The notes under the pieces: model-generated
What the model saw: only the letters and a program-made list of their open reading frames with translations
Database searches by the model: none
What the model was told of the DNA's origin: nothing
From: Cunninghamella blakesleeana
Taxonomy: Eukaryota > Mucoromycota > Mucoromycetes > Mucorales > Cunninghamellaceae
Assembly (NCBI GenBank): GCA_017871115.1
Contig: JAFCIZ010000005.1
Location: 3,341,501 to 3,405,500, forward strand
DNA: 64,000 nt
Reading direction: 5' to 3'
In this document: positions 13,124-47,432 of the stretch, piece after piece
Layout: each line of letters begins with the position of its first letter
Numbering within the stretch: position 1 is the stretch's first letter
Translations under genes and position numbers: made by a program

Positions 13124-13426
13124 TTATTTAGTATTAAGATCATCATAATAATCATCACTATTGGGTACTTCTTTTTCTCTTGATCTTGAAGAAGAACGTT
13201 CTTCATCACCATCTTCAGGATCATCATATTCATCTTTAGATTCTCCAGGAGCTCGTTTCATGTTCATAGGTTCTAAAATACGAGGTTGTTTACCACCATC
13301 CATAAAAGGACTGACACGATTATCCTTATAGCTACTTAATTGGACATCTTTTGAACCTAAAGGTGCTGCTTGTATTTGTATCATATAAGTAAATAAAGCG
13401 ATTGAAAAAAGACCTGTAAATTTCAT
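13124..13426 (-). CDS. Small secreted acidic protein, 100 aa
   Basis: The gene has a single exon on the - strand. The signal peptide begins MKFTGLFSIALFTYM and is cleaved after about QIQA. The mature chain of about 80 residues has no Cys. It contains one KR site (MNMKRAPG) that splits it into two roughly equal parts, followed by an acidic Ser/Arg-rich stretch (ERSSSRSREK) and a C-terminal DDYYDDLN. It is the first member of the long - strand run of secreted genes. No family is recognised. Confidence 0.68.
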   Translation of the reverse strand: MKFTGLFSIALFTYMIQIQAAPLGSKDVQLSSYKDNRVSPFMDGGKQPRILEPMNMKRAPGESKDEYDDPEDGDEERSSSRSREKEVPNSDDYYDDLNTK

Positions 13427-14437
13427 GTTAATAGTATATTTATATATTAATTAAGAATAATAAAAATAATAATAATAAAAAGAAAATAAAAAATAAAAAA
13501 ATAAAAATTAAACATTGTTTTATATATACTTTTTTTATTTTTATATATATATATATATATATTCTAAGGGAAAAAAGCAAAAGAAAAAAAGAGGGGTTTT
13601 TAGGAGTGGAGCATATAAAAAATAAAATGACAAGAATTACTGCTAAATGATTAGAGGAGTAAGAGGTAAAGGTCTCCTTATGTAGGAATAAAAACAAAAT
13701 ATCTTTTAAAGGTACTATTATTTAAAGAAGTAAGGGATTAAAAAAGAAAAAGAAAGCTACTTTTTGTTATATGACTTATCATCATCATTGACATTAAATA
13801 TTTTCTATTTTTCTTTTTTTTTAAAGCGTTTTTTAAATATATATTAATTTAGTTATTAAAAACCAAGAATGGTTCATAAAAAGATAGGCCAAAACTAAAA
13901 GATGATGACAAAGATAATAGTAGTAATTACTCTAATAAAAATTAATAACAATAAAATGTATTTCTTAGTATTCAATCATAATAAAAGAAGTAAAATATTT
14001 AATAAATATTCGTTTACAAATTTGTTTTATTTCAAAATAAAATGATCTTTTTTTCCTTATAATATATAATGGTAACATTTCTGGTAAAATTGGTTGCATC
14101 TCCTCCTCCTTATTATTATTTAAACATAATGTGTCAGTTTACAGTCTAATAGTAATAAAAAAACTTTTTATTTTTTATTTTTTTAAAAAAAAGCTAAATA
14201 ATCGTTTATATGTATGTATATTTTAAAAAAATGGAGAGAATGTAGCTAATGTATAAATGCATAAGTATTGATTCTAGCGTCCTTATCGTTATTTATTTAA
14301 CTATTTAGAAAATGAGTTTATTTAAAATAAGTAAATTTAAACCAAGTTGATTAAAAAATATATCATTATTGTATTTATTTATTTATTAAATTAATGAAGA
14401 ATATATTATTATTGGTGTTTAATTATTTTGATTATTT
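13427..14437. other. AT-rich spacer, no gene seen
   Basis: It holds A/T tracts, a TA repeat near 13545-13560 and the upstream region of the 13124-13426 gene. A hydrophobic antisense open frame (13440-13697) is low-complexity Phe/Leu/Ile/Lys from T-rich DNA and is not accepted as a gene. Confidence 0.55.
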
Positions 14438-14716
14438 TTATAATAAAGTGAGAAAAAAAAGGACTAAATGAACTTGGGAACCAACAACATTATTAGCGGC
14501 ATTTAAAAGGCAATCACAAGCTTCAGTATTGAGGTCTTCAATATTCCCAAGACATGTATTAAGATTAGTAGGATTATTAAGATAGCTTTCAACAGCAGTA
14601 GCAACAGGGCCTATAGTACCAGTAACACAGTCAAGGGCATTACTAAGATTAATAATTTGCATTCGAATAAAAGAAAATGATGATAATAATATTAATGTAA
14701 GAATACTAGCTTTCAT
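14438..14716 (-). CDS. Small secreted Cys-containing protein, 92 aa
   Basis: The gene has a single exon as read. MKASILTLILLSSFSFIRM is a signal peptide much like that of the 17414 gene. The mature part has four Cys (LDCVTG, NTCLGN and the CDC of EACDCL) in an Asn/Leu-rich helix-like context. The last 10 residues (HLVLFFLTLL) are hydrophobic, which is odd for a soluble secreted protein. They may mean a GPI-type signal, a missed 3' intron, or a degraded end. The function is unknown. Confidence 0.55.
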   Translation of the reverse strand: MKASILTLILLSSFSFIRMQIINLSNALDCVTGTIGPVATAVESYLNNPTNLNTCLGNIEDLNTEACDCLLNAANNVVGSQVHLVLFFLTLL

Positions 14717-14788
14717 AATGATTATAGTATATATAAATATATAGTGAATATCTATAATAAAAAAGAGTATTTATAATAAAACAAAATA

Positions 14789-14821
<33 letters not shown>

Positions 14822-15933
14822 CTATTTTCAAGGAAAGTTGCTAGATAATATAATAGTTTATATTTGAATTGTTGCCAAAAAAAATATAATTTTATTGTAT
14901 TTGCTTGTTCTGCATTTGAACCTTCAATATTACCTTTATCATTTAGACCAATTTATAGAGATAGTTAAGAAATATACTTTTTTTTTTTTACTTTGAGATC
15001 AAATAAATCGATTAATAAATAAAAACGAAAAAAGGGTCTCAGTCTGAGCATAGAGTAATTTTTTTAAAAAAAGATCTTGTTCCCAACCTTTGTAGATTAA
15101 ATAAATTTAATTTTAATTTTCTTTTAGAGTTGTCAAAATATAATGTAATTCTATTTTTTATTAAAATAGTATATATAACATGGCATTTTAAAATTATTTT
15201 CTATTGTTTTTAAAATAGCATTGAGCATAAAATATCTTATGAATTAAATGAGATAAGAGTGTATATCGCTAGTATAATTAACTACATTAGTTTTATAATC
15301 GACTTGGTTCTACTCTATTTTTTTTTTTTTTTCTTTAATAAATTGTTTTCGAACTACAGTGCATTAAACTTTTGCGAATACCAAATTGGCACCTTTAACG
15401 AGACTATCCTACCAATTTTAATTTTACAAGTTTTGAAAATGATATGTATAATGTAAATCATTTTATTAAAGAAATTAAGAATAGTTTAAACCTAATATTA
15501 TTTTTCAATAAGAGCGTCTTTAGGCTAGTCTTTTAACTATGTCTTGATTTTTCATATGATATTAAAATTAACTATTTGTTTAATATTGAAAAAAAAAAAT
15601 ATATCGGCTACTTAAATTCCTTTCTACCGCCCTGTTTTTTTTTTTGGTGTCGGCTTATATTAGCCGATTTGTTTTCAAAATAATTAAAGTCTTCCACAAA
15701 TTTACTTGAATATATACAGATGATCTCATAAAAAATATAACATGTAATGAGTAAAATCAAATAAAATAAAAATGAAGTAAAATTTTGAAACAAACTATGA
15801 AAAATAGTGTAGTGATTAACAATAGCTTTACAAAAAAAAAGTATATAGCCTTAAAAAAACATTGATGATTATGTCAGCATGAACTACTTCATTCAATAAT
15901 ATTGTTTCATTATGATATTAATAATATCTGGCT
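14717..15933. other. AT-rich spacer, no accepted gene
   Basis: A TA repeat lies near 14798-14821, and a short inverted repeat (TCGGCT, then TAGCCGA) near 15648-15664. A 65-codon + strand open frame (15259-15456) begins with a non-ATG codon and lacks recognisable features, so it is not called. Confidence 0.5.
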
Positions 15934-16800
15934 ATGAAGGATAAGTATAAAAAAATGAGTATATTATATGAATTTTTTGATTTCTTTTTTAATTTTACTT
16001 TATTTTTATTTTTTAAATTCTCTGATAAAATGATAACTTATGGTATTTCGACATTGGGTAAACCTATCGTCTTACAAGAAGGGAATGAAGGCGAATCACT
16101 TTTTCGTATAGCATTTATTTTATTTACATTTTTGCTGGAATTGTCAAATATTGGTTTTGCTATCCATTCTTTTATAAAATCCAAAAGCCTCATCCAATTT
16201 CGTTTTCCCTTTTTTCAAAAAGGAAAATACAATTCCTTACTTATTTTATTCACGTATCTTTTACATACAACGATACATACGTTTCATTATATGGATAATA
16301 TTCACCGTCCTGTAGCTTATTTTGAACCCAAATATTTATACCAAAAATACATTTTATCTACCATGGAAATCACCTTCTTTTTTAATTTCCCTTTGACTCT
16401 CTGTGGAATCTTTTTTATGAAAACACTATTTAAGAAAGGGTATGTAGATTATACTTATTTAGTCATGTATATCTGTTCCTCCCTCATGACATTGATGCAT
16501 TATCGTATCGAAAGTCCTTCCTTTTATTCTCCAAGCGTGAATTTTAGTATCACTGGTGAAGGTGTTTCTATTTTGTTATTGATCTGTGTTACCTTTATAA
16601 TAAGGCAAAAGCCTGAAAAAAAATATCACAAGTTGTTTATTGTCTTTTTCTTCTCTTTGATCATGTGCCTCTTGATTTTTTTCAACCTTGGCATTTGGTG
16701 GCTGTTGGTTTATCTATTCCTCTTTACAATGGTCATATTTAAATTAACAGAAGGTATTATGTATGAAAATTACGAAAAATTACCAACTTTTGAAAAATAA
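15934..16800 (+). CDS. Orphan multi-pass membrane protein, 288 aa
   Basis: The gene has a single exon. About seven hydrophobic segments are visible, near residues 12-32, 58-80, 98-115, 140-165, 170-190, 212-228 and 235-268. Between the third and fourth lies a distinctive polar motif, LLHTTIHTFHYMDN followed by HRPVAYFEP, with several His that could bind metal or haem. I do not recognise the family. It is the only + strand gene inside a 34-kb block of - strand secreted-protein genes. An alternative start is the internal Met at 15955. Codon use and length support a real gene. Confidence 0.72.
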   Translation: MKDKYKKMSILYEFFDFFFNFTLFLFFKFSDKMITYGISTLGKPIVLQEGNEGESLFRIAFILFTFLLELSNIGFAIHSFIKSKSLIQFRFPFFQKGKYNSLLILFTYLLHTTIHTFHYMDNIHRPVAYFEPKYLYQKYILSTMEITFFFNFPLTLCGIFFMKTLFKKGYVDYTYLVMYICSSLMTLMHYRIESPSFYSPSVNFSITGEGVSILLLICVTFIIRQKPEKKYHKLFIVFFFSLIMCLLIFFNLGIWWLLVYLFLFTMVIFKLTEGIMYENYEKLPTFEK

Positions 16801-17413
16801 ATGATTCTTAGATAGATTAGCTATATAAACATACATTAAATTATGATAAATGTGTTGCTATTATAAAGTCTATAATAAATGTTTTTTATATATCTAGAAT
16901 AAATAGGAAAGTATATGTTTGGTTAAAAAAATGTATAAATATATTTGTATATAAGGTAGTATTAGCTTTAATTATAAATGAGTTATACCATTTTCTTTTT
17001 TATAAAAAAATAAAATAAAAAGTATAATGATGTTGACTATCATAAATTGAAAATAGATGTTTCGGATAAATGCAAACCAAGCAGACATAATAAGCAATTA
17101 AAAAAATATCTATTTCAATTTTATTTTAATAATATATATATATATATATATATATATTGTAAATAATAAAAACAATAATAGTATGTAATAATAAAATTTT
17201 AACTAAAACAAATTATAATATTTATATATGTATAAAATAATTAATATATTCTGACAAAAAAGTATTGGGATAAACTATAGCATTAACATTTTGTGTAATA
17301 AATAAGTAAAAATAATAAATTTTGATATATGATTAAAATAGAATTGAAACTGAATTATACTTAAACATCGTTTATATAAATTTAAACAGTAGAATATTCA
17401 TAGCAGATTCGGA
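16801..17413. other. Convergent spacer, no gene seen
   Basis: This lies between the 3' ends of the membrane-protein gene (+) and the repeat-peptide gene (-). It contains a TA repeat near 17133-17158. Confidence 0.6.
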
Positions 17414-18085
17414 TTAAAGTTTGCCAAAATCTAAAAGATTACCTTCACCATCAGTTAAACCTTCAAGGATAGGAAGACCTGAATCAGAGAAACCAAGTAA
17501 ATCACCAATATCACGTTTGTCAAGATCTAAAAGATTACCTTCATCATCAGTTAAACCTTCAAGAATAGGAAGACCTGAATCAGAGAAACCAAGTAAGTCA
17601 CCAATATCACGTTTGTCAAAATCTAAAAGATTACCTTCACCATCAGTTAAACCTTCAAGAATAGGAAGACCTGAATCAGAGAAACCAAGTAAGTCGCCAA
17701 TATCACGTTTGTCAAAATCTAAAAGATTACCTTCACCATCAGTTAAACCTTCAAGGATAGGAAGACCTGAATCAGAGAAACCAAGTAAATCACCAATATC
17801 ACGTTTGTCAAGATCTAAAAGATTACCTTCATCATCAGTTAAACCTTCAAGAATAGGAAGACCTGAATCAGAGAAACCAAGTAAGTCACCAATATCACGT
17901 TTGTCAAAATCTAAAAGATTACCTTCACCATCAGTTAAACCTTCAAGAATAGGAAGACCTGAATCAGAGAAACCAAGTAAATCACCAATATCACGTCTCA
18001 TTTCTTTTTTCCCATTTCTAATGGGAGCAGCTTGAATATAAGAAACACAAGATAATAATACCAATGTAATAAGTGAAGCCTTCAT
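17414..18085 (-). CDS. Kexin-type secreted repeat-peptide precursor, 223 aa
   Basis: The gene has a single exon. The signal peptide starts MKASLITLVLLSCVSYIQ and is followed by a short basic spacer (GKKEMRR). Six back-to-back units of exactly 32 residues then run to the stop codon. Each unit starts DIGDLLGFSDSGLPILEG and the first five end in LDKR or FDKR; the last ends FGKL. Cleavage after each KR by a kexin-type protease in the Golgi would release near-identical acidic peptides of about 30 residues. This is the architecture of fungal Kex2-processed repeat proteins, a class that includes pheromone precursors and Ustilago repellents. Units differ only at two positions (GEG/DEG and FD/LD). No Cys is present in the units. 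The function is unknown, with signalling or surface-active peptides possible. Confidence 0.85.
   Translation of the reverse strand: MKASLITLVLLSCVSYIQAAPIRNGKKEMRRDIGDLLGFSDSGLPILEGLTDGEGNLLDFDKRDIGDLLGFSDSGLPILEGLTDDEGNLLDLDKRDIGDLLGFSDSGLPILEGLTDGEGNLLDFDKRDIGDLLGFSDSGLPILEGLTDGEGNLLDFDKRDIGDLLGFSDSGLPILEGLTDDEGNLLDLDKRDIGDLLGFSDSGLPILEGLTDGEGNLLDFGKL
17417..17992 (-). repeat. Six tandem 96-bp coding repeats
   Basis: Exactly six 96-bp units encode the 32-residue peptide of the precursor. Synonymous differences show a repeating three-unit order, so a 288-bp block appears to have been duplicated. The opposite strand stays open through all six units only because the repeat lacks stops there. 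Confidence 0.9.
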
Positions 18086-18761
18086 GATGGTGATTTATAT
18101 TATTATAATTAAGTAGGTATTATATAAAACCGTAAGAGAAAATAGTAATAATTATATAATGAAAAATTAAATAAATAAAGAGATGAAAAAAAGTGTCTGA
18201 ATTTGTTTGAATTTATATGTTTCTCTCAAAAATAAAAAAGAAGGTTTTGTGTATTCCCCCTTTTTTTTGGTCTTTTTTGGTCCTTTTTTTTAAAAAAAAA
18301 TTGAGAGGAGAAAAGGGAAATGAATTAGCATTAAAAAGACGATATATATATGTTTTTTTATACAAATAGAAGTATACAAATGCTTGAATATACGATTTCA
18401 ATTTATTATTATTATTATTATTTTAAACGTATCTATTATCAATTTAAAACATTGTAATTGTTATAATTTTAATGAAAAAAAGTGATCATAATGAATTATC
18501 ATTGAATAACATATTGGAACTCAGATGTTCTCGGTTTAGTGGAAGAGTGCATAAAAAAAGTAAGGGGAAAGAGGTATCTAACATTAAATCATTGTGTTTG
18601 TTTTGTTTTCAAAATAAAAAATCAATGTTTTTTTTATTATCACTCTTTTCCTATTTGTTTTTGATAACCTAACAATAAAAGTGATGCATTATCTAAACTC
18701 ATTACTGTTGGTGATGATGTTTTTTTAAAAAATAAGGATTACATATACATAAAGCATATTC

Positions 18762-19696: not shown

Positions 19697-20440
19697 TTAT
19701 GCTTCATATGAAGAACTACGTTGGTTACGATGCATTCTATCACTATCACGACCTTCACCACCTTCCCTATGACGGTCACCGCCACGTTCTTTACCATCGC
19801 TATGGCGTTCAACATCTTCATCATGGCTGACTTTACTTTCATAACGACCACGGGAGTCTTCATCACGACCACCTTCATCACGACCACCTTCATCACGATC
19901 ACCACCGCTCTCTCGACCTTCTCCACCATGTTCACGGCCACCATCACCACCACGTTCTTCACCACCACCACCACGTTCTTCACCGCGATCGCTACCACTT
20001 TCTCGACCTTCTCTACCATGTTCACGGCCACCATCACCACCACGTTCTTCACCGCGATCGCTACCGCTTTCTCGACCTTCTCTACCATGTTCACGGCCGC
20101 CATCACCGCCACGTTCTTCACCTCGATCGCTACCACTTCTTTGACCTTCTCTACCATGTTCACGGCCACCATCACCACCACGTTCTTCACCACCACCACC
20201 ACCACCACGTCCACGGCTTGATGTCTTTGTATTAGCTTTACCTAAAAGACCTAAGATACGATGACGCTTCTCCAATTCTGAAGAAGAAGAAATAGTGTGG
20301 TCGGTTAAAATATTATTAATGTTTTGATTTCTTTTCATAATTGTAATTGGGCTTGCTTCTACTTGATGTTGTTCATTTTGTAATAATGCTACTAGTAAAA
20401 GTGTTACACAGAACGTAATAGTTGTTATGCGTTTATACAT
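19697..20440 (-). CDS. Secreted Gly/Arg/Glu-repeat protein, 247 aa
   Basis: The gene has a single exon. The start MYKRITTITFCVTLLLVALL is a signal peptide ending near VEAS. Two KR sites follow (IMKRNQ and LEKRHR near residues 36 and 58), then a hydrophilic, strongly charged region. That region carries three full copies of a 23-residue unit (core EERGGDGGREHGREG) and a fourth diverged copy, from about residue 85. The tail is rich in RDEGG, HSDG and DRHREGG. The protein lacks Cys and hydrophobic core, so it is likely disordered and extracellular. GC-rich coding repeats make all frames appear open here; the signal peptide fixes this frame. The function is unknown. Confidence 0.7.
   Translation of the reverse strand: MYKRITTITFCVTLLLVALLQNEQHQVEASPITIMKRNQNINNILTDHTISSSSELEKRHRILGLLGKANTKTSSRGRGGGGGGEERGGDGGREHGREGQRSGSDRGEERGGDGGREHGREGRESGSDRGEERGGDGGREHGREGRESGSDRGEERGGGGEERGGDGGREHGGEGRESGGDRDEGGRDEGGRDEDSRGRYESKVSHDEDVERHSDGKERGGDRHREGGEGRDSDRMHRNQRSSSYEA
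19892..20188 (-). repeat. 69-bp coding tandem repeats
   Basis: Three near-perfect 69-bp units and a fourth degenerate unit, separated by a short EERGGGG insertion, encode the Gly/Arg/Glu repeats. Confidence 0.85.
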
Positions 20441-24325: not shown

Positions 24326-24844
24326 TTAGGCTTGATTCCTTCCAGAGAGGGCTATATCTATACTACTTAATCCGATTTGATTTGATAAATGTAAGTCCAT
24401 TACTACTAATTTAATACAATTACCTAAAGAGTTTGCAACCTGATGAGCTTTTGGGTCATCATCTTGTTCAAGTACATTTTCAATAATAAAGCGAGTATTT
24501 TCCACCAGCGAAGTTATATCTTGGAAACATAATGTATCAGGTATATAAATATCATTGTTATAATTACTATTAGCGATCAAAGTATCAAAGTGATTGGCAG
24601 TAGCAATGGTATTTCGTATTTTTGGATTGATTTTTTCTAATAATTCATAATCATAGCTTAATATAGTAGCCAAATTGGTTAGTGCTAATTTATAATTGAT
24701 GATATCTGATATTATTTTTGATCTAGATGATCCCATAATAGTATCCTTTTTGATAGAGTGCTCCATCAATGGTGATCCTTTAATCACTCTTAAAAATAAT
24801 GTTAATCCTATTAGAAGAAACATCAATATATATGAAGACTTCAT
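24326..24844 (-). CDS. Secreted helical protein with two Cys, 172 aa
   Basis: The gene has a single exon. The signal peptide is MKSSYILMFLLIGLTLFL, probably cleaved near VIKGSP. The mature part of about 148 residues is predicted mostly helical by its Leu/Ile/Asn pattern. It has two Cys (DTLCFQD and LGNCIKL) about 45 residues apart that could pair. It has no dibasic repeat structure and no Leu-Gly runs, so it is probably not a member of the 30-43 kb family. No family is recognised. Confidence 0.65.
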   Translation of the reverse strand: MKSSYILMFLLIGLTLFLRVIKGSPLMEHSIKKDTIMGSSRSKIISDIINYKLALTNLATILSYDYELLEKINPKIRNTIATANHFDTLIANSNYNNDIYIPDTLCFQDITSLVENTRFIIENVLEQDDDPKAHQVANSLGNCIKLVVMDLHLSNQIGLSSIDIALSGRNQA

Positions 24845-26317: not shown

Positions 26318-28007
26318 TTATGGTTTTAATTTTTTTAAAAATTCTTCATTAGCCTTTTCAATCATTTCTAAATAAGGAGTAGCAGCTTCCATACCATCTT
26401 GTTCCTTTAAATCCTTGATAGCTTTAGAAATATGGTCCAAGGCCATTAAAACCTTAGCAACGTTATCAGCCAATTTATTTAAATTCTCTTTATTATCTTC
26501 TTTTTGTTGTGAATGCTCTTGTTGTTCAATGTTAGGTAAATTCTTTGTGGTTAATTGGTCCATCGTTTTTACCAAATCATTGAAAAGGGCATTATTCTTA
26601 CCAATATCTGCTTTTTTTAATTCTTCAATAAATGGTTTGACTTGTTTAATATATTCTTCAATATCATTAGGTTGGATACCACCATTTTCATTATTTTGGT
26701 ATTGTTTTAATTCAGCTTCAGTTTTTTTATTGTCCATACTTTGATGATCTTCTGCATGAGAGGTACTAGCAGTATTATCAGATCCAGCAGTAATATCATT
26801 TGATTTAGTTGAATCATGGTGATAAGGATTGGTGGAAGTGCTTTGTACTAAAGTTGGTTGTTCTTGTTGTTTTTGTGAAGGTGATGATGCATGCATGGTT
26901 TGTAAAGAGGAAAGCATCATGCGAAGAGATAGTAAGAGAACTTTAGTATTTGGATCACTATCGGCGGCTAAGGTATTCAATTGATTTAATTCTTTAGAAA
27001 GCTGTTGAAGACGATGGCTACCGTTGGTACTACTTTTTTTTAATTGCTGGTGCAAGTTCTTCATTTTTGATACATATCGTCCGTTAATAGGTGTAGTGCC
27101 ATCTACTGGAGCTTGGGTATTGCTTTCACTACCTGGAACTTGATCATTACCAGTAGCAGGTGGTTCAGCGGGAGCAGCAGGATCTTTAGCTGGTGGTTCG
27201 GCAGGAGCAGCAGGATCTTTGGCAGGTGGTTCAGCGGGAGCAGCAGGATCTTTAGCTGGTGGTTCAGCAGGAGCGGCAGGATCTTTGGCTGGTGGTTCAG
27301 CAGGAGCAGCAGGATCTTTGGCAGGTGGTTCAGCAGGAGCAGCAGGATCTTTGGCTGGTGGTTCAGCAGGAGCAGCAGGATCTTTGGCAGGTGGTTCAGC
27401 AGGAGCAGCAGGATCTTTGGCAGGTGGTTCAGCGGGAGCAGCAGGATCTTTAGCTGGTGGTTCAGCAGGAGCAGCAGGGTCTTTGGCTGGTGGTTCAGCA
27501 GGTGTGGCTGGTGGTTTTTTATCCTGTTTTGGAGGAGTCTTTTTATTACCTAAAAGAAAAATACGTAAATATATTTAATATAAATAAAGTGACAATAAAT
27601 AACATCTTTTCCTTTATAGTATTATTATTACCAGCAGGGGGTTGTTTTGAAGAACCAAGACCAAGAGCGCCTAAAAGATCACTTACAAGTTCGCCTACTT
27701 CACCAACAATATCCGTAAGGATGCTTTTACCTTGCTCATTCAATATAAGTTTATTATTATCCAACTTGTCCAACTTATTATGATCATCATCATTCACAAA
27801 CATGGAAGAAGGTTGCTGGTGATCACGTTTTTCAAATGATTCTTTGGGTTGCATGAAATGAGTGGTTTCAAATTGGTTTGTTTGTTGATACAAAGTTCTG
27901 ATTTCATGATCGATAACATCTTTTGGAATACTAGTAGGTAAAGATTCTACTTGATGGTATATAATGACGCTGATCACGTAGAAATGCAAATAAGAGGATA
28001 TCTTCAT
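26318..28007 (-). CDS. Secreted Pro/Ala-repeat protein, 2 exons, 535 aa
   Basis: Exon 1 is 28007-27632 and exon 2 is 27549-26318, joined in phase across an 82-nt intron. A signal peptide (MKISSYLHFYVISVIIYH) is followed by a KR site (FEKRDH) and a Leu/Gly/Val amphipathic stretch (ILTDIVGEVGELVSDLLGAL) like those of the downstream cluster. The spliced second exon opens with a Pro/Lys segment, then ten copies of an 11-residue unit (AAPAEPPAKDP), a linker, and about 250 residues of Gln/Asn/Lys-rich, coiled-coil-like helix. The proline repeats suggest an extended stalk, as in cell-wall or adhesion proteins. No GPI signal is clear. The opposite strand is open through the repeats but lacks a start context. 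The function is unknown. Confidence 0.72.
27159..27488 (-). repeat. Ten 33-bp coding tandem repeats
   Basis: Ten 33-bp units encode the Pro/Ala/Glu/Lys 11-mer. Units differ by synonymous changes at a few fixed sites. A partial eleventh unit adjoins the high-coordinate end. Confidence 0.88.
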
Positions 28008-29807: not shown

Positions 29808-30539
29808 TTAAACAATTCCACCAATCCCACCCGTACTAGAACCAACATCACCAACCAAATTTTGAAGCAAACATGAAGCAAGCTTAGTCACAGTTTTTAA
29901 AACGTTACAAAGTATACTATCATTGTTATCTATTCCAACATCCAGTAAAAGATTTTTAATAAGAGCAAGAACATTACTAATAAGTTCACCTTCATGGCTA
30001 TCATCCTTGGTACATGAGCCTTCGTTTTTTACCAATTTATTATCTTTATTAACAAAGTCAAAACTAATTCCTCTAGAACATAATAATTTTTGAAGAGCGC
30101 CTATTAAATCACTGGTATCATCTTCTCTAGAATCTTTATCGCCTTCATCATCGTCACCGTCACCAAAGATTTCTTTTAATACTTGAGTATCGTCGTCTAC
30201 AACATTACTTTTACCAGAAGCATTGCTACCACTACCACCAATAATACCGCTATTACTTGTACCATCACCAATACCAAGTAAACCAAGAAGACTTTGAATA
30301 AGATTATCTTCGCTTAAATTTATAAGTTCACCACCGGTTAAACCAATGCCCTTTTTAGTAAGAAGATCAAGTACTTCTTGTAAAAGTGAATCTACTAAAC
30401 CATCACGTTTCATTGAAGTAACTTGATAATTTATAGAGGTTACGTCAGCATTTTGGATAATATCAATGGGTCTAGCAGTGATTTGTTGAAAGAAATAAAT
30501 AGCAGTAGTAGCGCCAAAAGTGAAAAGACTTAGTCTCAT
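29808..30539 (-). CDS. Leu/Gly-rich secreted cluster protein 1, 243 aa
   Basis: The gene has a single exon. The start is set at the internal Met at 30539 (MRLSLFTFGATTAIYFFQQ), which matches the N-termini of the neighbouring paralogues; an in-frame Met 27 nt upstream would spoil the signal peptide. After a KR site (MKRDGL) comes a Leu-rich amphipathic segment, an acidic Asp/Glu stretch (DGDDDEGDKDSRED), a second Leu segment ending LQKLLCSRG, and a C-terminal segment with VLKTVTKLASCLLQNLV. Four Cys are visible. Unlike the other members, it ends GGIGGIV without the basic tail. The function is unknown. Confidence 0.72.
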   Translation of the reverse strand: MRLSLFTFGATTAIYFFQQITARPIDIIQNADVTSINYQVTSMKRDGLVDSLLQEVLDLLTKKGIGLTGGELINLSEDNLIQSLLGLLGIGDGTSNSGIIGGSGSNASGKSNVVDDDTQVLKEIFGDGDDDEGDKDSREDDTSDLIGALQKLLCSRGISFDFVNKDNKLVKNEGSCTKDDSHEGELISNVLALIKNLLLDVGIDNNDSILCNVLKTVTKLASCLLQNLVGDVGSSTGGIGGIV

Positions 30540-31739: not shown

Positions 31740-32531
31740 TTATTGAAGGGCACGTCTTGCAAGGATAGCAGCTTTGATAGCTTCACGACGGATAATTTCA
31801 CGTTTAGTACCACCTAATCCACCAACAACGTTTCCAAGTATGCAGCCTACAATCTTTGTAACAGTTTGAAGAAGACCACCAACAAGACCATTTTCTTTAT
31901 CAAGGATTCCACCAGCAATGCCACCTTCACCGCCACCTAAGAGACCTTTCAAGATATTAAGTACTTTAGAGATGAGAGCATTGTCATGACCAGTACCTAC
32001 TTTCTTACATTCACGATCACCATTACCATCACTGTCGTTATGGTCTTCACGTTTGGTAAGATCATCATCATCTTGTAACTCCTTACCCTCTGAACATAAT
32101 AATTGATCAAGGGCAATCTTCAAATCAAGAAGATTTTGATCATCATTATCACTACCAAGAACAGAGCCAAGAAGGCGTTGAACTTCTTGAATAAGTTTAT
32201 CTAAATTTAAGTTTAAGAGATCACCATCAGTTAAACCAACAAGTTTTAAAACTTCATGTAGCAATTTTCCTAATCCATCATCGCCTAGTACTTCATTATC
32301 TCCACCTAACACACCATTGTCTTCACCTAACACACCGCCATCACCACCGCCTAAAATACCACCATCACGTTTAGTAAAATCAGAAAAAGTATGAGCATCT
32401 ACAGCTTCAGCTCCACTTAAACCTCGTTTAACAACAACACCATTGTTATCATGGTGAATTTGATTAGCTGTGGCTTGTTGAAGGAAACATAAAGCAGCGG
32501 CAGCACCGATTGTGAAAAGACTTAATTTCAT
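31740..32531 (-). CDS. Leu/Gly-rich secreted cluster protein 2, 263 aa
   Basis: The gene has a single exon. The signal peptide is MKLSLFTIGAAAALCFLQQ. KR sites lie near residues 35, 54, 160 and 244 (VVKRGL, FTKRDG, LTKRED, GTKREI). The chain alternates Gly/Asp repeats (GGDGGVLGEDNGVLGGDN) with Leu-rich amphipathic segments, an LLCSEG motif, an acidic stretch, and GLVGGLLQTVTKIVGCILG. It ends in a basic tail, REIIRREAIKAAILARR. The kexin-type spacing suggests cleavage into four or five peptides. The LLCxxG and LLQTVTK motifs are shared with the adjacent genes at 29808 and 33651. The function is unknown. Confidence 0.76.
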   Translation of the reverse strand: MKLSLFTIGAAAALCFLQQATANQIHHDNNGVVVKRGLSGAEAVDAHTFSDFTKRDGGILGGGDGGVLGEDNGVLGGDNEVLGDDGLGKLLHEVLKLVGLTDGDLLNLNLDKLIQEVQRLLGSVLGSDNDDQNLLDLKIALDQLLCSEGKELQDDDDLTKREDHNDSDGNGDRECKKVGTGHDNALISKVLNILKGLLGGGEGGIAGGILDKENGLVGGLLQTVTKIVGCILGNVVGGLGGTKREIIRREAIKAAILARRALQ

Positions 32532-33650: not shown

Positions 33651-34520
33651 TTAGGAGAGCTTGGACTTTTCAATTAAATTTTGAATAAGAGCACGGCGTA
33701 ATTGGCTGCGCTTTGCAGGGCTTGTATTGCTATTAGTTACAGGTAATTTAGAAATAGAAGGAGGAGGAAGAGAAGGACCAAGGACAGAAGTGACTACTTT
33801 TGTAATAGTTTGCAATACATTAGGGACAAGACCTTTTGTTCCTTGGCCATTTGTTAAAAGGTTTTTCACTAGACCAAGAACTTGTCCAAGTAGGTCAAAG
33901 TTAGGATTATTAGAAGCAATAGCGCATTTACCATTCACGGTACCACTACTGCTACCGCTGCCTTCATCATCATTTTCATTTTCATTATCATTATCATTGC
34001 TTGATGTTTCCCGTTTTGTTATATCATCATCATCATCATCATCTTCGCCATCCATATCTAATTTACCAGATAAATTTTCATCATGTCCCTTATTACATAA
34101 AACTTGATCTACTGCACCTATTAAAGTTCGAAGTAGGCTAATCAAGGAAGTATCACCAAGTACTTCATGATCGGTATTAAGTTTAGTCATATGGCCAGTT
34201 AATTCATCAATTAAAGTATTTAAATTCAACACCTCATTAGGGTTGATGCCTAATCCGATTTGTTCGAGAAGATCTGTTACTGTTTTTAATAAACCTTGAA
34301 CAACATGAAGGCTGCCGTCCTTATTATTCATAATGGTAGTATTAACAGGATCCTTTACCACTTCATTGGATTGTCTTTTCACATTTTTGCTTTTGAATGT
34401 AGAATCTAAAGTAGACGGTGAATAGATCAAACCATCAGATGAAGGTTGAGTTTCATACGCATTTATTTTATGTAATAAACATAAAATGAACGAACCAAGA
34501 ATAAAAAAGTGAATTTTCAT
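33651..34520 (-). CDS. Leu/Gly-rich secreted cluster protein 3, 289 aa
   Basis: The gene has a single exon. The signal peptide is MKIHFFILGSFILCLLHK, cleaved near KINAYE. KR sites lie near residues 48 (NVKRQS), 170 (ITKRET) and 270 (PAKRSQ). The middle part carries Leu-rich segments (VVQGLLKTVTDLLEQIGLG), a VLCNKG motif, a seven-Asp run and an Asn/Asp/Glu-rich stretch. The C-terminal part repeats the family pattern (NVLQTITKVVTSVLG) and ends in a basic tail, SQLRRALIQNLIEKSKLS. It is closest in layout to the 31740 gene. The function is unknown. Confidence 0.75.
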   Translation of the reverse strand: MKIHFFILGSFILCLLHKINAYETQPSSDGLIYSPSTLDSTFKSKNVKRQSNEVVKDPVNTTIMNNKDGSLHVVQGLLKTVTDLLEQIGLGINPNEVLNLNTLIDELTGHMTKLNTDHEVLGDTSLISLLRTLIGAVDQVLCNKGHDENLSGKLDMDGEDDDDDDDITKRETSSNDNDNENENDDEGSGSSSGTVNGKCAIASNNPNFDLLGQVLGLVKNLLTNGQGTKGLVPNVLQTITKVVTSVLGPSLPPPSISKLPVTNSNTSPAKRSQLRRALIQNLIEKSKLS

Positions 34521-35755: not shown

Positions 35756-36547
35756 TTAGTTAGCACGTTTAACGAAATTACGACGTAAGAGGCTACGTTT
35801 TTGAGTAATACCATCAAGATGAGTAAGTTTAGTACCACCAAGTATTTCAGACAAGAGATTACCAATGGCTTTAAGAAGTTTACAGAGAACATTTTCACCA
35901 GAAATGTCGCCCTTTAAAATAGTTTGAATAAGTTCAAGGATCTTTTGAACAATGTTTAAGTCAAGGCCTGTAGGCTCACAAGAATTACCACCAGTAAGTT
36001 TATGACCTTCCAAAATACCGGTTAAATCTAATTCAAGACCTAAACATTTCAAGAGGTTTTCTACCAATTCCAATAATTGATGGACAAGACCTAAAAGACC
36101 GTGATCTTCTAAAAGACCATCACCTAAAAGTTCTTCAATGGTTTCACCTAAATCAAGACCGATATGTTCTAAATCTAAATGTAAAATATCAAGGTCTAAT
36201 AATCCAGAACCATGACCAATGCCAATTAAACAACTCTTATCGAGACCTAAAAGTTGATGAATCAAATTCACAACACTTTTTAATAAACCATCTACCAATA
36301 CTTTTACTTCAATAACAATATGATCTAAACCAAGATCAATTCCACTACCGTCACCACCACAGGAAGATTCAGATGAACATTCACATGACCCACATCCACC
36401 TCCACCAAGACCTAAATCAAGACCACGGGCAGCGATATCAACTTCACTAGCACTGGTAGATATACTAGAACCAATTTGGTTAGCAAAAGTTTGTTGTTGT
36501 AAAGCACATAAAGCAATAGCACCAAGAGCAATAATACTGAATTTCAT
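35756..36547 (-). CDS. Leu/Gly-rich secreted cluster protein 4, 263 aa
   Basis: The gene has a single exon. The signal peptide is MKFSIIALGAIALCALQQQ. It differs from its neighbours by a Cys-rich N-terminal patch (GGGCGSCECSSESSCGG, five Cys) and by many LGLDL/HLDLEHIGLDL-type segments with regular Leu/Asp/His. Further single Cys lie in SCLIGIG, LLKCLGL, NSCEPTG and NVLCKLL. The C-terminus has a QKR site followed by a short basic tail, SLLRRNFVKRAN. The Cys patch could be a metal site or disulfide knot. A TATAAATA box lies 163 nt upstream. The function is unknown. Confidence 0.75.
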   Translation of the reverse strand: MKFSIIALGAIALCALQQQTFANQIGSSISTSASEVDIAARGLDLGLGGGGCGSCECSSESSCGGDGSGIDLGLDHIVIEVKVLVDGLLKSVVNLIHQLLGLDKSCLIGIGHGSGLLDLDILHLDLEHIGLDLGETIEELLGDGLLEDHGLLGLVHQLLELVENLLKCLGLELDLTGILEGHKLTGGNSCEPTGLDLNIVQKILELIQTILKGDISGENVLCKLLKAIGNLLSEILGGTKLTHLDGITQKRSLLRRNFVKRAN

Positions 36548-39247: not shown

Positions 39248-40036
39248 TTAGAGAGCAGAACGTCTTTCAATGGCGCGCTTGATTAAAGCACGACGTAAAG
39301 CACCAGCCTTGGTACCTTCACCTTTGACAACACCACCAAGTAAGGCATCAACAATATCAAGAACAGGCTTAAGAATACCTTCAAGACCAGTTCCTTCCAA
39401 AAGACCTTGAACTTTTTCAAGAAGACCTTTAACAACGCCAAGATCAATTTTTTTAAGAGCACCACCAGCAACATCTGGAGTGACACCACGTTTCGAAGCA
39501 CTACCAATTGAACCAACAAGCTCACCAACAAGATCTTCAAGTGCAGAGAGGTCGACAATATCACCAAGACCTAATGAGTCTAAAAGTTTAAGCAAAGTAC
39601 TGAGAAGGTCTGTCACTGTTTCCAATAATTCACCAACAAGACCACCTTCATCAAGGAGAGATCTAACAGCATCAACAAGACCACCAAGTAATTTATCAAG
39701 GTTGAGAAGCTTGGTAATATCAAGGAGGCCAGATGAACCAGTAGTACCTTCTAAACTATTAACTGTTTCTAATAATTCATCCACAGTGCTATTGATTTCT
39801 ACTGGAGCTTCACGTTTAGCTGTTCCTGAAATATTAACTGAGTCTTCAGCAGCGGGCCCAAGGAGTTTATCAGCAGGTAAACCACCAAGAACTTTAGTAT
39901 CTGTATCAGTAACGCTCCCAGTAACTCCATTAGTAGCTCCATTAGTAACTTCATTGCCTAATGGGGAAGGTCTAGCTTGAGTTTGCTGTAATAAACATAA
40001 AGCAACTGTACTAATAACAAAAAGGCTGAATTTCAT
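39248..40036 (-). CDS. Leu/Gly-rich secreted cluster protein 5, 262 aa
   Basis: The gene has a single exon. The signal peptide is MKFSLFVISTVALCLLQQ. KR sites lie near residue 74 (TAKREA) and 182 (SASKRGV). Between them is a long, almost continuous amphipathic Leu stretch with the family motif GLVGELLETVTDLLSTLLK. The last segment has VVKGLLEKVQGLLEGTG and ends ALRRALIKRAIERRSAL. The mature protein has no Cys. It is clearly the sister of the 42030 gene, sharing signal peptide, KR positions, tail and 3' flank, so the two arose by a recent local duplication. The function is unknown. Confidence 0.78.
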   Translation of the reverse strand: MKFSLFVISTVALCLLQQTQARPSPLGNEVTNGATNGVTGSVTDTDTKVLGGLPADKLLGPAAEDSVNISGTAKREAPVEINSTVDELLETVNSLEGTTGSSGLLDITKLLNLDKLLGGLVDAVRSLLDEGGLVGELLETVTDLLSTLLKLLDSLGLGDIVDLSALEDLVGELVGSIGSASKRGVTPDVAGGALKKIDLGVVKGLLEKVQGLLEGTGLEGILKPVLDIVDALLGGVVKGEGTKAGALRRALIKRAIERRSAL

Positions 40037-41568: not shown

Positions 41569-42029
41569 AATAAAGAATAGATTGAAGTTTCAAGATAATA
41601 TATATATATATATATATATTTACAGAATAATGAAGTATGGTAATAAGTCTGCATGTTTTTATGATCTACATACATGTTACATTTCAGAAGAATTAAAAAG
41701 GAAATAAAATGATCGTTTGTTTAATTTTTTTTTTTAAAAAAACAAATATATGGTTATATTTTTATTATTAGAGAAGAAAAAAAATAGAAAGTAAAAAAAA
41801 AAATATTCTAACAGTTATAAAATAAAATAGTAAAAATAATAATAGTTAAAATAAAGGCTAATACAAAATAAATAAAAAAAAATATACTTTGTCACATAAA
41901 AATATTGTTTTCATAATAAAATAATAAAAAAAAAAAAATGGATTTGCATAATTTTTTTTTTCTTTTTCAAGAATTAGCCAAATAAATAATTAAGTAAATG
42001 GTATATAAAGAAAGGGTTCAATCATTAAT

Positions 42030-42938
42030 TTAGAGAGCAGCACGTCTTTCAATGGCACGTTTGATTAAAGCACGTCGTAATGCACCAGTATTGGCAGCAC
42101 CACCACTAGTAACACCACCAAGTAAGCCCTTGACAAGGTCAAGAACGCTCTTAAGAAGGCCACCAAGGAGACCATCAATGGGACCTCCCTTACCAGAACT
42201 AGTAAGGCCACTTAAAATAGTTTTGATTTTTTCAAGGACACCTTTAACAGCATCAATATTAACAGTTTTAGAATTACCGCCAGTAATACCTGTAGTGGCG
42301 CCACGTTTAGCAATACCGCCAGCTGAACCGAGAAGGTCATCAAGAACAGCACTAAGGTCAGCAACATCACTAATACCAAGTAAATCTAAAAGTTCAAGCA
42401 CAGCTTCAAGAAGTCCTGTCACTGTTTTTAATAATCCACCAACAAGACCATCTTCTTTAAGGAGGGATCTAACAGTATCAACAATACCACCAACTAAACC
42501 TTTAAGGTTAAGCCCGACAATATCAATTGCACCAACTGTACCAGGAAGGTCTTCTAATAAACCATCAATTTCTTCCAATATACTACCTACAAGTTCATCA
42601 AGACCTAATAAATCACGTTTGGCTTGATTTTTGGTATCACCAACATCTTGGCCAGTTGAATCGCCAATATTATTTTCACCATCAACTGGAGCAACAGCAG
42701 AACCGCTACCTCCTTTACCAACAACAGTGTTACTTTCGTCACCAATAACACCGTTACCAACATTACCAGCATCAGTATTACCACCAAGTAAACCACCAGC
42801 AAGATCAGTAACAGGCTTAAGGGCTCCACCAGTAACACCTCCAGTTAAATCTTGGCTACCTCCTACTAATGGAGAAGCTTGACTTTGTTGTAATAAACAT
42901 AAGGCAACAGCACTAATAGCGAAAAGACTGAATTTCAT
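42030..42938 (-). CDS. Leu/Gly-rich secreted cluster protein 6, 302 aa
   Basis: The gene has a single exon. The signal peptide is MKFSLFAISAVALCLLQQ. The N-terminal third is Gly/Val/Asn-rich (LAGGLLGGNTDAGNVGNG). A KR site (NQAKRDLLG, near residue 107) opens an amphipathic domain with GLVGGLLKTVTGLLEAVLE. A second KR (GIAKRGA, near 213) opens the last domain. It ends ALRRALIKRAIERRAAL, differing from the 39248 tail by one residue. The mature part has no Cys. Compared with its sister, the N-terminal Gly-rich segment is about 35 residues longer. The function is unknown. Confidence 0.78.
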   Translation of the reverse strand: MKFSLFAISAVALCLLQQSQASPLVGGSQDLTGGVTGGALKPVTDLAGGLLGGNTDAGNVGNGVIGDESNTVVGKGGSGSAVAPVDGENNIGDSTGQDVGDTKNQAKRDLLGLDELVGSILEEIDGLLEDLPGTVGAIDIVGLNLKGLVGGIVDTVRSLLKEDGLVGGLLKTVTGLLEAVLELLDLLGISDVADLSAVLDDLLGSAGGIAKRGATTGITGGNSKTVNIDAVKGVLEKIKTILSGLTSSGKGGPIDGLLGGLLKSVLDLVKGLLGGVTSGGAANTGALRRALIKRAIERRAAL

Positions 42939-44968: not shown

Positions 44969-44999
<31 letters not shown>

Positions 45000-45439
45000 A
45001 CGCGAGTGCTTTCATTTTTTTGAAAAAAAGAACCATATAAATAATTAAAAAAGATAACGATATAAGAATAAGTAAACATTTTTTTATATATAGAAATCAT
45101 TGTTATATTAATCTTATTGTATCAAGAAAAAAGAAAAACAGCTCTATAGATGATTTTTATTTTAAAAAAAAACAACAATTTTAAATATTAGGTCAAAAAG
45201 TAAACTTTGCTGAATGATATACACTAATAAATCTACTTGTATTTTAGATATAGATTAGAATAGGTTCAAAATAAATATAAATGGATTATTTCTATTTTTC
45301 TTGTTATTACATTGCAGTTTTTTTTTAAAAAAAAATAAAGCCTATGGTTGAATAAAAGATCATTAAGTACAAAGTTAAATAGAGTCAAAAAGTAAAATAA
45401 TAAATCCTTGTTTTTTTTTTTTTTTTTTTTTCGTTATAT

Positions 45440-45470
<31 letters not shown>

Positions 45471-46337
45471 ATGGTATTTATCAGTTGGTTTTTCTGGAGA
45501 AAAAAGTATTTAATATAGTTTGGTAATCAAAGGCTCGTTTCGTATAATATTCAAACTTATAATTTTCAATTAAATAGCACAGCTTTTCATTTGGTAATAG
45601 TAGCTCTATTATTTATTTTAGGTTATTTTTAATTGTATGCTTTTAAAATATAATTGTTGTTTTAGGTGAAAATATAATATTATATCTATTTATTTTTCTG
45701 AAATTTATATTATACTAGTTATTATTTTTTTTATTTTTATTTTTTCGATCAATCATATTCCTTTTTGAATACTTTTCGACCAATAATAATCAAAGAAACT
45801 AAATTAATATTATTTTATCAAGAATTCTCACTTATCTACTTATAAATATATACGTTTAACAGGTTTTGATAATTGTATGCAAACAAAAAAAAATAAAGTA
45901 TTATTATATAAATACGATTTCATTTTTATTGATTTTATTTTAATAATTCTTTTCCATCTATTTTTTTTTTTTTTTTTTTTCGTGTAATGCGTTTTTGATA
46001 ACTATTTATAAAAATCTACGCATGCACAAGAAAAAAAAACCATGATATAATAACCTATTAAAGTACTTAACATTTTATAAAAAAGGGAAATCATTAAACT
46101 TGGTACAGATGTTATTTTTGGTATAGTTAAAAAATATATATTTATTAATTTTTATTTCTAAATAGGTATTTTTAAAACAATTTCATAAATTTATTATTAT
46201 TAAAAAATATAATAGTGGGATTGATGGGGTAAAAAAGGAAGAAATACAAAAATAAATTTTTTTTTATAAAAAAAATAGATGGTACAGTTATTTAATTATT
46301 ATTATTAAAAAAAAAGAGAGGAAACAAAGATTTGCAT
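42939..46337. other. 3.4-kb gene-free AT-rich region
   Basis: No gene is supported. It contains the TATA box at 43069, a CT repeat near 43157-43172, T runs near 43561-43586 and 45410-45431, TnAn palindromes at 44781-44798, 44969-44998 and 45318-45335, and a short GT run near 45458-45470. Confidence 0.55.
43069..43076 (-). promoter_or_regulatory. TATA box of cluster protein 6 gene
   Basis: TATAAATA on the - strand lies 131 nt upstream of the start at 42938. It sits in sequence similar to that upstream of the sister gene. Confidence 0.5.
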
Positions 46338-47432
46338 TTAAGCAAGTTTCAATTGCTTAGCAACAGAGAGAGGAAGAGCAAGCTTATCAGTCAATTGAGT
46401 AACTTGGAGACCTTGGAGGTTGATTAAAGAAGTAACAGGGATTTGAGAGAGGTTACCTTTGGTGACGGTAGCAACAGTTTCAAGAACGGTACCCTTGATC
46501 AAGTTAGTAGGAATGCTAATGACACTACCTTCAACAGAGGAGATGAGACCACCATCAACAACGTGGAGTTGAGAGACGGTAACGGTAACAGTGTTCTTGA
46601 CTTCAGCAGCAAGACCAAAGACAGTGGTAACAGTACCACCAGCAAGAGCTTCAACTTCACCAACGAGGCCACTAGCAACTCCTTGGATTTGACCAACAAG
46701 ACCACCAACAAGACCGCCAGCAACACCGCCATCAGTAGTAGAGGTAATTTGAACGACTTGGGTTAAAGTGGTTTGAACAAAGGATAAGTTTTGTTGTAAA
46801 TCAGCAGGTAAAGCAGTGATACCGCCAACTTTGCTAATGGTAACTTGGACGACATTTAAGGCACTAGTGACATCACCAGCATTTAATTTAGCGAGAACCT
46901 TGTTAGGAAGAGATTGTAATTGAGCTTGGACCTTTTGAGTTAAATCACCAGAGCTAATAAGAGTAGTTACTTGAGTCAAAACAGTAGGGACAGAAATGAG
47001 TTGAGCTTGTAAAGCGGAAGGAAGAGTCTTGAGAACAGTTTGTAATTGTTGAGGTAAAGAAGTTAATTCAGTTGGAAGAGTAGCAAGTTTGTTCAAGAGG
47101 CCAGAAGGTAAACCTTGGATTTGAGTAGGTAAATCAGCTAAAGCCTTTTGAACAGTTTGAGGTAAACCGGAAATGACATTAACTAATTGAGTAGGGTCAT
47201 TGAGAACAGCCAAGACTTGATCTTGAACGTCAGCAGGTAAAGCTTGGATTTCGGAAAAGATAGCAGTGACGCTTAAAAGGTGAGTGATGTTATTTAAACC
47301 GGGTAAAACAAGAACGGCACCAGCATCAGCTTTAAGGTTAGCTTTAGCAGAGGCATGACGAGCAGTAAGAGGAGCACCTTGAGCACTCATTAACATGGCA
47401 GCAGCAATAACAGCAAGGGTAGAGAAACGCAT
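46338..47432 (-). CDS. Secreted Leu-Pro-rich helical protein, 364 aa
   Basis: The gene has a single exon. The signal peptide is MRFSTLAVIAAAMLMSAQG. The first half of the mature chain is a series of short helices separated by Leu-Pro (QALPADVQ, SGLPQTVQ, ADLPTQIQGLPSGL, ATLPTELTSLPQQL, KTLPSALQ), spaced about 8-15 residues. The middle is Val/Gly/Thr-rich (GGLVGGLVGQIQG, AEVKNTVTVTVSQ). The mature part has no Cys and no KR cleavage sites, so it differs from the genes to its left. Base composition is visibly less AT-biased than its neighbours, which may reflect high expression. It could be an abundant cell-surface or amphipathic coat protein. No family is recognised. Confidence 0.75.
   Translation of the reverse strand: MRFSTLAVIAAAMLMSAQGAPLTARHASAKANLKADAGAVLVLPGLNNITHLLSVTAIFSEIQALPADVQDQVLAVLNDPTQLVNVISGLPQTVQKALADLPTQIQGLPSGLLNKLATLPTELTSLPQQLQTVLKTLPSALQAQLISVPTVLTQVTTLISSGDLTQKVQAQLQSLPNKVLAKLNAGDVTSALNVVQVTISKVGGITALPADLQQNLSFVQTTLTQVVQITSTTDGGVAGGLVGGLVGQIQGVASGLVGEVEALAGGTVTTVFGLAAEVKNTVTVTVSQLHVVDGGLISSVEGSVISIPTNLIKGTVLETVATVTKGNLSQIPVTSLINLQGLQVTQLTDKLALPLSVAKQLKLA

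Follow-up and report, generated by a model that had tools for sequence, protein, structure and literature searches.

A dense block of secreted-type genes in Cunninghamella blakesleeana, centred on a tandem family of probable kexin-processed precursors

Introduction

What does a fungus of the Mucorales gain from a run of 13 genes for secreted-type proteins, all on one strand? To our knowledge, few secreted or surface proteins of the Mucorales have a known role. The run lies mid-contig (3.34–3.41 of 5.87 Mb) in the 31.9-Mb genome of Cunninghamella blakesleeana, in a stretch of 64,000 nucleotides that was analysed whole and is called the window here. An earlier note, made from the letters alone, had described positions 13,124–47,432 of the window as a co-oriented cluster and had seen in it a specialised, probably kexin-processed secretory locus.

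Clusters of secreted-protein genes are already known in fungi, as are precursors built to be cut. There are relevant systems of three kinds, (i) KEX2-processed repeat proteins (KEPs), defined by a signal peptide and at least three tandem repeats of at least eight residues between KR, KK, RK or RR, none longer than 100, and averaging 9.15 per strain in Mucoromycota (PMC7329392), (ii) Rep1 and Hum3 of Ustilago maydis, secreted precursors whose amphipathic units are separated by Kex2 sites, with twelve repeats of 34–55 residues and amyloid-like fibrils in the case of Rep1 (PMC4617103), (iii) cluster 19A of U. maydis, a run of novel secreted-protein genes for 24 effectors that is tied to plant colonisation (PMC4081774).

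Results

Gene content and setting

The block holds the 14 genes found (Table 1), 13 on the minus strand and one on the plus strand. The earlier note had this layout right, a lone plus-strand membrane protein interrupting the run. Of its 13 minus-strand genes, 12 are single open frames and the remaining one (26318–28007) is spliced with an 82-nt intron. Its list of unrelated sequence types stands in that there are several families, with the correction that the 13 genes fall into eight, six of the genes forming one tandem array. Apart from a weak match between g2 and g3 (E 0.001) that starts inside the signal peptide, the families show no clear relation. The strand bias is 13 of 14 by gene but 8 of 9 by family, the membrane protein included (two-sided sign test, ∼0.04), and the same-strand order of families is weakly unexpected.

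Table 1. Features of the block, with positions in the window
Feature	Position	Strand	Description
g1	13124..13426	-	100-aa secreted-type protein, signal score 8.66; acidic after KR at residue 57
g2	14438..14716	-	92-aa secreted-type protein, signal score 8.12, 4 Cys, no KR
Orphan	15934..16800	+	288 aa, multi-pass membrane protein by sequence; no Pfam match
g3	17414..18085	-	Putative KEX2-processed repeat protein, six 32-aa units
g4	19697..20440	-	247-aa secreted-type Gly/Arg/Glu repeat protein, signal score 11.28; two KR before the repeat
g5	24326..24844	-	172-aa secreted-type protein, signal score 11.84, no KR
g6	26318..28007	-	535-aa secreted-type protein, two exons, KR at residue 60
g6 intron	27550..27631	-	82-nt GT...AG; joins the exons into one frame
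g7, LG	29808..30539	-	243 aa, no tail, one KR; 81% to P0005 of C. echinulata
g8, LG	31740..32531	-	263 aa, KR at 35, 54, 160, 243, related tail; homologue P0002 of C. echinulata, 79% identical
g9, LG	33651..34520	-	289 aa, KR at 48, 169, 270
g10, LG	35756..36547	-	263 aa, 9 Cys, KR near C-terminus only
g11, LG	39248..40036	-	262 aa, KR at 74, 182, 253, dibasic tail; 70% to P0003 of C. echinulata
g12, LG	42030..42938	-	302 aa, KR at 107, 211, 293, dibasic tail; homologues: 97% to record P0001, 59% to P0004 of C. echinulata
g13	46338..47432	-	364-aa secreted-type Leu-Pro protein, no KR

Scoring the stretches between these genes by codon use turned up two segments of 18 codons and nothing more; this approach would miss genes with unusual codon use, for example that of the plus-strand membrane protein (peak 19-residue hydropathy 2.82), whose own score is negative. 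Coding density is 281 bp per kb, lower than the 463 and 329 of the two 100-kb flanks. A retrotransposon island lies 17–66 kb to the left.

Secretion signals

Signal peptides were scored with a heuristic of our own, a stand-in for SignalP with a pass at 7.5. The earlier note had seen one on all 13 proteins; 12 score at least 7.5, and the exception is g7 (29808), at 5.28, whose N-terminus nonetheless aligns with those of its paralogues. The heuristic is unspecific, and outside the block also passes an ankyrin ORF (6876–7316) and a DHHC-like ORF (8187–8867). One study put the share of annotated fungal proteins that have a signal peptide at 7.7% (PMC7329392).

By this measure 12 of the 14 kept ORFs in the block are secreted-type (3.48 per 10 kb), compared with 4 of 37 (0.40 per 10 kb) in the left 100-kb flank, 10 of 48 (1.00 per 10 kb) in the right one and 0 of 11 at window positions 47500–64000; the controls, all on one contig, are both flanks plus the window outside the block. 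The dense array that had been claimed is borne out, and by comparison with these controls the block stands above background in secreted-protein genes, as clusters of the 19A type do. Like cluster 19A, it is a series of genes whose secreted products are novel; unlike 19A, it includes a tandem family rich in Kex2 sites and is linked to no host. The left border is soft because the adjoining ∼13 kb is also rich in secreted-type genes: 6 of 7 ORFs pass at 1–13000 (4.62 per 10 kb), three of the six being the ankyrin ORF, the DHHC-like ORF and an unclear ORF at 9971. On the plus strand this stretch carries secreted-type genes at 3923–4225 and 5187–5429 and a GH5 gene at 10953–12641.

When the tandem family is counted once, 8 of 9 families in the block are secreted-type, compared with 20 of the 103 ORFs that lie outside it. 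The chance of this is ∼4e-6 at the flank rate (14/85) and ∼1.5e-5 at the all-outside rate (20/103), figures that apply to a block chosen after the fact.

Dibasic sites and the LG family

A KR pair is present after residue 22 in 10 of the 13 genes, the exceptions being 14438 (g2), 24326 (g5) and 46338 (g13), which agrees with the earlier note's impression that most genes carry such sites, but the excess over chance is confined to the tandem array g7–g12. The block has 21 KR in all, where shuffling within each protein gives 5.0 (with g3, the repeat protein, taken as one unit), and 16 of the 21 are in this array. Five of its six genes, g8–g12, each show an excess (p 0.0015–0.0175); g7 and every gene outside the array, taken singly, show none (p 0.18–0.46, or no KR). 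In 84 control ORFs outside the block there are 118 KR against 77.4 in shuffles. The genome has two genes of kexin type, each with an S8 and a P domain.

Judged by their sequences, the six tandem genes are one family, called LG here, which appears to be new. In 9 of 13 LG sequences, homologues included, both internal KR sites are present, and the KR sites delimit two candidate chains, A (98–121 residues between sites) and B (71–101 residues). This arrangement is absent from g7, P0005, g10 and P0007. All nine two-site sequences have an acidic chain A, its net charge running from −3 to −18; for chain B the range is −2 to +7, and five of the nine are net-positive. The periodicity of LG proteins is helical rather than beta: the helical moment lies above that of shuffled sequences in most LG genes (z 3.4 for g12, 3.2 for g11, 2.4 for g10, 2.1 for g7 and 1.8 for g8), but not in g9 (z 0.5). 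Profiles of chain A and chain B, each built from six sequences of the g11/g12 type, align by hhalign over 21 columns with a score of 29.0 and a probability of 63%, and the best of 200 column-shuffled controls scored 19.2; on this profile evidence, the A and B chains of that type share a helix.

Proteins of the g11/g12 type end in a nearly fixed dibasic tail, with pairs spaced five residues apart. In four comparisons between this type and its homologues, the signal peptide is 77–100% identical, the 15-residue tail 93–100% and the rest 31–73%; such divergence of the middle is weak between g8 and P0002 (66–85%) and between g7 and P0005 (78–87%). The idea that the tail is an amphipathic antimicrobial helix was rejected: its moment is 0.04, and 99% of shuffles are equal or higher.

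The other genes

The g3 protein carries six units, DIGDLLGFSDSGLPILEGLTDGEGNLLDFDKR or slight variants of it; five of them end in KR and one in RR, and they are encoded by a 96-bp tandem DNA repeat (6.0 copies, 96% match). With a signal score of 10.75 by the heuristic and at least three repeats of eight or more residues between Kex2 sites, it answers to the definition of a KEP, its cutting by Kex2 being predicted from sequence. It is the only one of the 13 genes shown to qualify; LG proteins, with at most two related units (A and B) against the three or more repeats of KEPs, fall outside. The g6 protein has an eleven-residue Pro/Ala repeat (33-bp DNA repeat, 10.4 copies) followed by a C-terminal part of helical periodicity (helix moment z 3.2).

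Relatives and database matches

Protein searches scored capped lists of 7997, 7992 and 7992 candidates, with queries from block genes other than g1, g2, g4, g5 and g6. Among the candidates scored, LG relatives are C. echinulata proteins and one further record; g13 is well conserved (94% to record P0008, 83% to P0009 of C. echinulata), and for g3 none of the 7992 scored candidates reached E ≤ 0.01. Two neighbour pairs are apparently kept in C. echinulata. That the homologues are from Cunninghamella fits the Mucoromycota origin suggested earlier. The N-terminus of g1 weakly resembles a secreted-type ORF of the left flank (37% over 54 aa, E 4e-5).

Genome searches with g1, g2, g3, g13 and the plus-strand membrane protein each found the query itself only. 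Across all genome queries (these five, g5, g6 exon 1, g8, g12 and the g12 tail), the matches outside the block are weak ones of g5 and g6: ten for g5 (E 9e-4 to 0.06), taken as chance because three of the loci (L031, L032, L035) show transposon-like frames by eye, and one for g6 exon 1 (E 0.011). The search is insensitive, g12 having found g11 only and g8 having found g7 only (E 0.07), so that distant LG genes may exist elsewhere in the genome.

No block protein matches Pfam at the cut-off, the best sub-threshold match being CENP-O (E 0.0026) on the second-exon ORF of g6; that gene was scanned as a first-exon ORF with intron read-through and a second-exon ORF (26318–27064), the Pro/Ala repeat left out. 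In the same scanned proteins there is no Pfam hydrophobin match at E ≤ 1. Six hydrophobin gene matches lie elsewhere in the genome, and on that ground the block as a simple hydrophobin substitute was rejected. The seven of the 13 proteins compared with NCBIfam, a prokaryotic library, have no match there. Profile searches of the PDB gave weak matches, some of them to designed or repeat proteins; these (lowest E 0.0036 for LG and 0.037 for g13) were put down to composition. Structure predictions for g12 and g13 are of very low confidence (mean pLDDT 33.9 and 36.1). In the literature, the few wordings tried found nothing on such a cluster or on small secreted proteins of Cunninghamella.

Upstream regions

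In a word scan of 13 block and 83 control upstream regions, some words were marginally enriched, but no motif is clearly common to the promoters. The word AGGAGTAA (or its complement) is upstream of 5 of 13 block genes against 1 of 83 controls (p 1e-4, 150 words of that length tested), and ATTAAAAAG of 7 of 13 against 3 of 83 (p 1.4e-5, 96 words of that length tested). The latter enrichment survives correction for its word list, but is not called a motif because LG upstream regions are paralogous and the DNA is AT-rich. TATA-like words precede 8 of 13 block genes and 42 of 83 controls.

Discussion

Gene density, the KR excess of the LG genes, the KEP-like g3, the kexin-type genes and the apparent neighbour pairs in C. 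echinulata make a secretory locus with kexin processing probable, in a block whose left border is soft. The locus is best described as a cluster of secreted precursor genes centred on the tandem array of six LG genes. The signal peptide would take each LG precursor into the secretory pathway, where kexin would cut it after KR in the late Golgi. The commoner LG form would yield a propeptide, the acidic Leu/Gly-rich chain A and chain B, and the dibasic tail, where present, would be cut into small pieces. The amphipathic helices of A and B would most likely assemble at an air–water or wall surface.

Our preferred, still tentative reading is that this is a Cunninghamella-level locus whose processed peptides are surface-active and form a coat on hyphae or spores, much as the Kex2-released repellent peptides of Ustilago do. 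The same coat or secretion would perhaps also be fed by g3, the repeat precursor, and by the KR-headed genes g1, g4 and g6. By description, LG precursors resemble Rep1 and Hum3 in having amphipathic units divided by Kex2 sites; they differ from Rep1 in carrying one or two longer helical chains (71–121 residues) and, in some members, a dibasic tail. The proposed secreted, surface-active role is also that of hydrophobins, and the six hydrophobin genes elsewhere leave no coat gap to fill, which counts against a coat. So do the helical rather than beta periodicity (Rep1 fibrils being amyloid-like), the non-amphipathic tail, the lack of A and B in g7, P0005, g10 and P0007 and of a helix signal in g9, the weakly diverging middles of g8 and g7, the three of 13 genes without KR, the chance-level KR counts outside LG and the want of a clear promoter motif. 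A bolder version of the coat is improbable in our estimate: LG as a new, Cunninghamella-specific two-chain system beside hydrophobins, in which one precursor yields an acidic and an often basic amphipathic chain that co-assemble outside the cell, and the tail of the g11/g12 type docks kexin or serves sorting.

It is rather unlikely, if still to be taken seriously, that the genes have no common function, the block being a fast-evolving, gene-poor stretch in which one tandem-expanded family sits beside orphan secreted genes and the layout is a by-product. The low coding density, the eight families without clear relation, the retrotransposon island, the want of a clear promoter motif and the lesser groupings of secreted-type ORFs that occur in each flank and directly to the left are all consistent with this, whereas the share of secreted-type families (8 of 9) and the conservation of g13 and of apparent neighbour pairs in C. 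echinulata argue for more than coincidence.

Less probable is a weapon, with LG chains and g3 peptides acting on the membranes of competing microbes. Ends held fixed while the mature parts diverge, as in the g11/g12 type, would suit this role, as would the amphipathic helices of most LG genes and the pairing of acidic A chains with often net-positive B chains; but at 71–121 residues the chains exceed the usual length of such peptides, and strong acidity is the rule for chain A. That g3, and perhaps pieces of LG, are Kex2-released peptide hormones or pheromones is doubtful: g3 has the repeat structure of a KEP, and among the products of repeat precursors cut by Kex2 are alpha-type pheromones of Ascomycota (PMC6339444), but g3 found no relative among the candidates scored and LG chains are long and variable.

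The locus is one compact, deletable target, and the LG family makes clear predictions, namely KR-cut chains of set length and a tail that should matter for processing. If the coat reading is true, an early-diverging fungus would have a helix-based surface protein system beside its hydrophobins. If it is false, the block would still be a lineage-level cluster of secreted-protein genes, and one from outside the plant pathogens, whose clusters of this kind are the best described.

A non-random cluster of secreted-type genes

The thirteen minus-strand genes called in the block by the earlier note (g1-g13, numbered by rising coordinate) are all genuine, one of them with an intron. Seven of them are types that show no clear relation, and the other six genes form a single tandem family (LG, g7-g12), in which the other members are 23-51% identical to g12. 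Between g2 and g3 there is a weak match (E 0.001) that starts within the signal peptide. With the LG array taken as a single unit, the excess of secreted genes persists under each control used; on that count the shared strand, put forward as a co-oriented array, becomes weak evidence. The home-made signal-peptide heuristic that labels ORFs 'secreted-type' yields false positives, and the 13 kb directly left of the block scores as high as the block itself (six of seven ORFs secreted-type, three of these six being false or unclear), so that the excess is better described as spanning about 3.9-47.4 kb, the strand changing near 13 kb. The cluster of secreted-type genes is real and non-random.

The genome comprises 31,936,959 bases in 12 contigs. 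With 5,874,162 bases in contig C5 and the window at 3341501-3405500, the locus is far from any contig end; G+C content in the window is 21-35% (2-kb steps). The neighbourhood contains further gene groups (see table). The retrotransposon-like island carries genes for reverse transcriptase and integrase as well as a chromo-domain element; of five ORFs scanned there, four matched. Its gene sets are repeated, some copies being 99-100% identical, and it could be a centromere-like region.

Features of the locus, its flanks and the hydrophobin group (window coordinates unless a contig is named)
Feature	Position	Strand	Remarks
Block, g1-g13	13124-47432	-
LG genes g7, g8, g9, g10, g11, g12	29808, 31740, 33651, 35756, 39248, 42030	-
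Secreted-type GH5 gene	10953-12641	+	Pfam Cellulase and GH5 C-terminal domain
Close GH5 paralogue, right flank	139913 to about 141660		89% and 79% in the two ORFs that match
Smaller left-hand group	-84140 to -81371		three secreted-type ORFs, one weakly related to g1
Smaller right-hand group	128374 to 137446		three secreted-type ORFs, two related to each other
Oxidoreductase gene copies	54153-64000		three related copies, one inverted; two ORFs scanned: one GMC oxidoreductase match, one FAD-binding models
LTR-retrotransposon-like island	C5:3275549-3324680		L007-L012; 17-66 kb left of window
Hydrophobin (PF01185) matches	C1:7185319-7197829		L046-L048; six over cut-off within 12.5 kb

Anatomy of the LG precursors

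Two internal KR sites (dibasic Kex2 sites) frame two chains, A and B, in nine of the 13 LG sequences compared: g8, g9, g11, g12 and the database relatives P0001-P0004 and P0006. The arrangement is absent from g7, P0005, g10 and P0007. Chain A has 98-121 residues and a net charge of -3 to -18; chain B, measured up to the last KR and hence including part of the tail, has 71-101 residues and a charge of -2 to +7 (positive in five of nine). Hydrophobic periodicity is helical in most LG proteins, g9 excepted. For the g11/g12 type, profiles of A and B built from six sequences (g12, g11, P0001, P0003, P0004, P0006) align over 21 columns with a score of 29.0 and a probability of 63%, while none of 200 column-shuffled controls scored higher than 19.2. 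This supports the origin of one helix of A and B from an old duplication; a second common helix is seen by eye only.

The dibasic C-terminal tail is more uniform. Sequences of the g11/g12 type (g11, g12, P0001, P0003, P0004, P0006, P0007) end in the 15 residues RRALIKRAIERR(A/S)AL, P0006 having one A to T change, and in four comparisons 14 or 15 of the 15 are identical where the middle parts reach 31-73%. Related forms end g8 and P0002, and partial forms g9 and g10; g7 and P0005 are the LG sequences compared that lack the tail. Its dibasic pairs are spaced five residues apart, it is not amphipathic, and a search of this genome found it in g12 and g11 only.

Relatives and apparent neighbour pairs

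The LG protein search returned at least seven proteins at E<=0.001 (7997 candidates scored), six of the seven labelled C. echinulata (Cunninghamella echinulata). For g13, one C. echinulata protein and one from another record were found, and on these relatives the genome is taken to be that of a Cunninghamella, order Mucorales. Genes g8 and g7 match P0002 (79%) and P0005 (81%), which have consecutive locus numbers (272946, 272945) and are both listed on a contig of 5229; g12 and g11 match P0004 (59%) and P0003 (70%), with locus numbers 272435 and 272436 and a listed contig of 6651. Given the consecutive numbers and shared contig sizes in the records, rather than contig sequence, g8/g7 and g12/g11 are read as neighbour pairs kept in C. 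echinulata. P0006, P0007 and the g13 relative P0009 are all listed on a contig of 3,581,431 bases, which suggests that LG and g13 share one chromosome in the relative. Conservation of g13 is much higher, at 94% and 83% to its two relatives found. P0004 and P0006, both labelled C. echinulata, are merely 48% identical: either they are different paralogues or one record bears the wrong species name.

A hydrophobin group elsewhere in the genome

A role of LG as a substitute for absent hydrophobins is rejected, as the genome has six matches to the PF01185 search profile over cut-off. The three loci read have open frames of 113-115 residues with a signal-like start, eight core Cys by eye and Pfam E of 1e-18 to 4e-18; for the one searched, the best solved relative is 2nbh (E 3e-14). 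Such a group is unexpected in a Mucorales genome because reports place hydrophobins almost exclusively in Dikarya: according to PMC6784888 they had been described solely there until that paper added Caulochytrium and one Mortierella protein. PMC8926845 found no evidence of hydrophobins in Rhizopus microsporus, and among the literature matches listed there was no report of a hydrophobin group in a Mucorales genome.

Probable kexin processing and a working model

Two genes in the genome are of the kexin type, having exons for a subtilase and for a P domain. Among the other block genes, g3 has six 32-residue units and falls under the rule for KEX2-processed repeat proteins published in PMC7329392. 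A KR at 57-60 of g1, g4 and g6 could mark a candidate propeptide end; KR counts in these three are not above chance. No KR occurs in g13.

From the anatomy of LG, the simplest route would be a signal peptide, then kexin cutting, then release of amphipathic chains. Among working models the repellent Rep1 comes closest: PMC4617103 describes it as Kex2-cut into amphipathic peptides that form fibrils on hyphae. The LG units differ from those of Rep1 in number, length and helical character, so LG may be said to work like Rep1, with no claim of membership.

Pfam, protein, NCBIfam and PDB profile searches matched LG to no described family, and its function is inferred. Both secreted-gene clusters and repeat precursors cut by Kex2 belong to known kinds, of which the LG precursor, with its two chains and in some members a fixed dibasic tail, is a variant.
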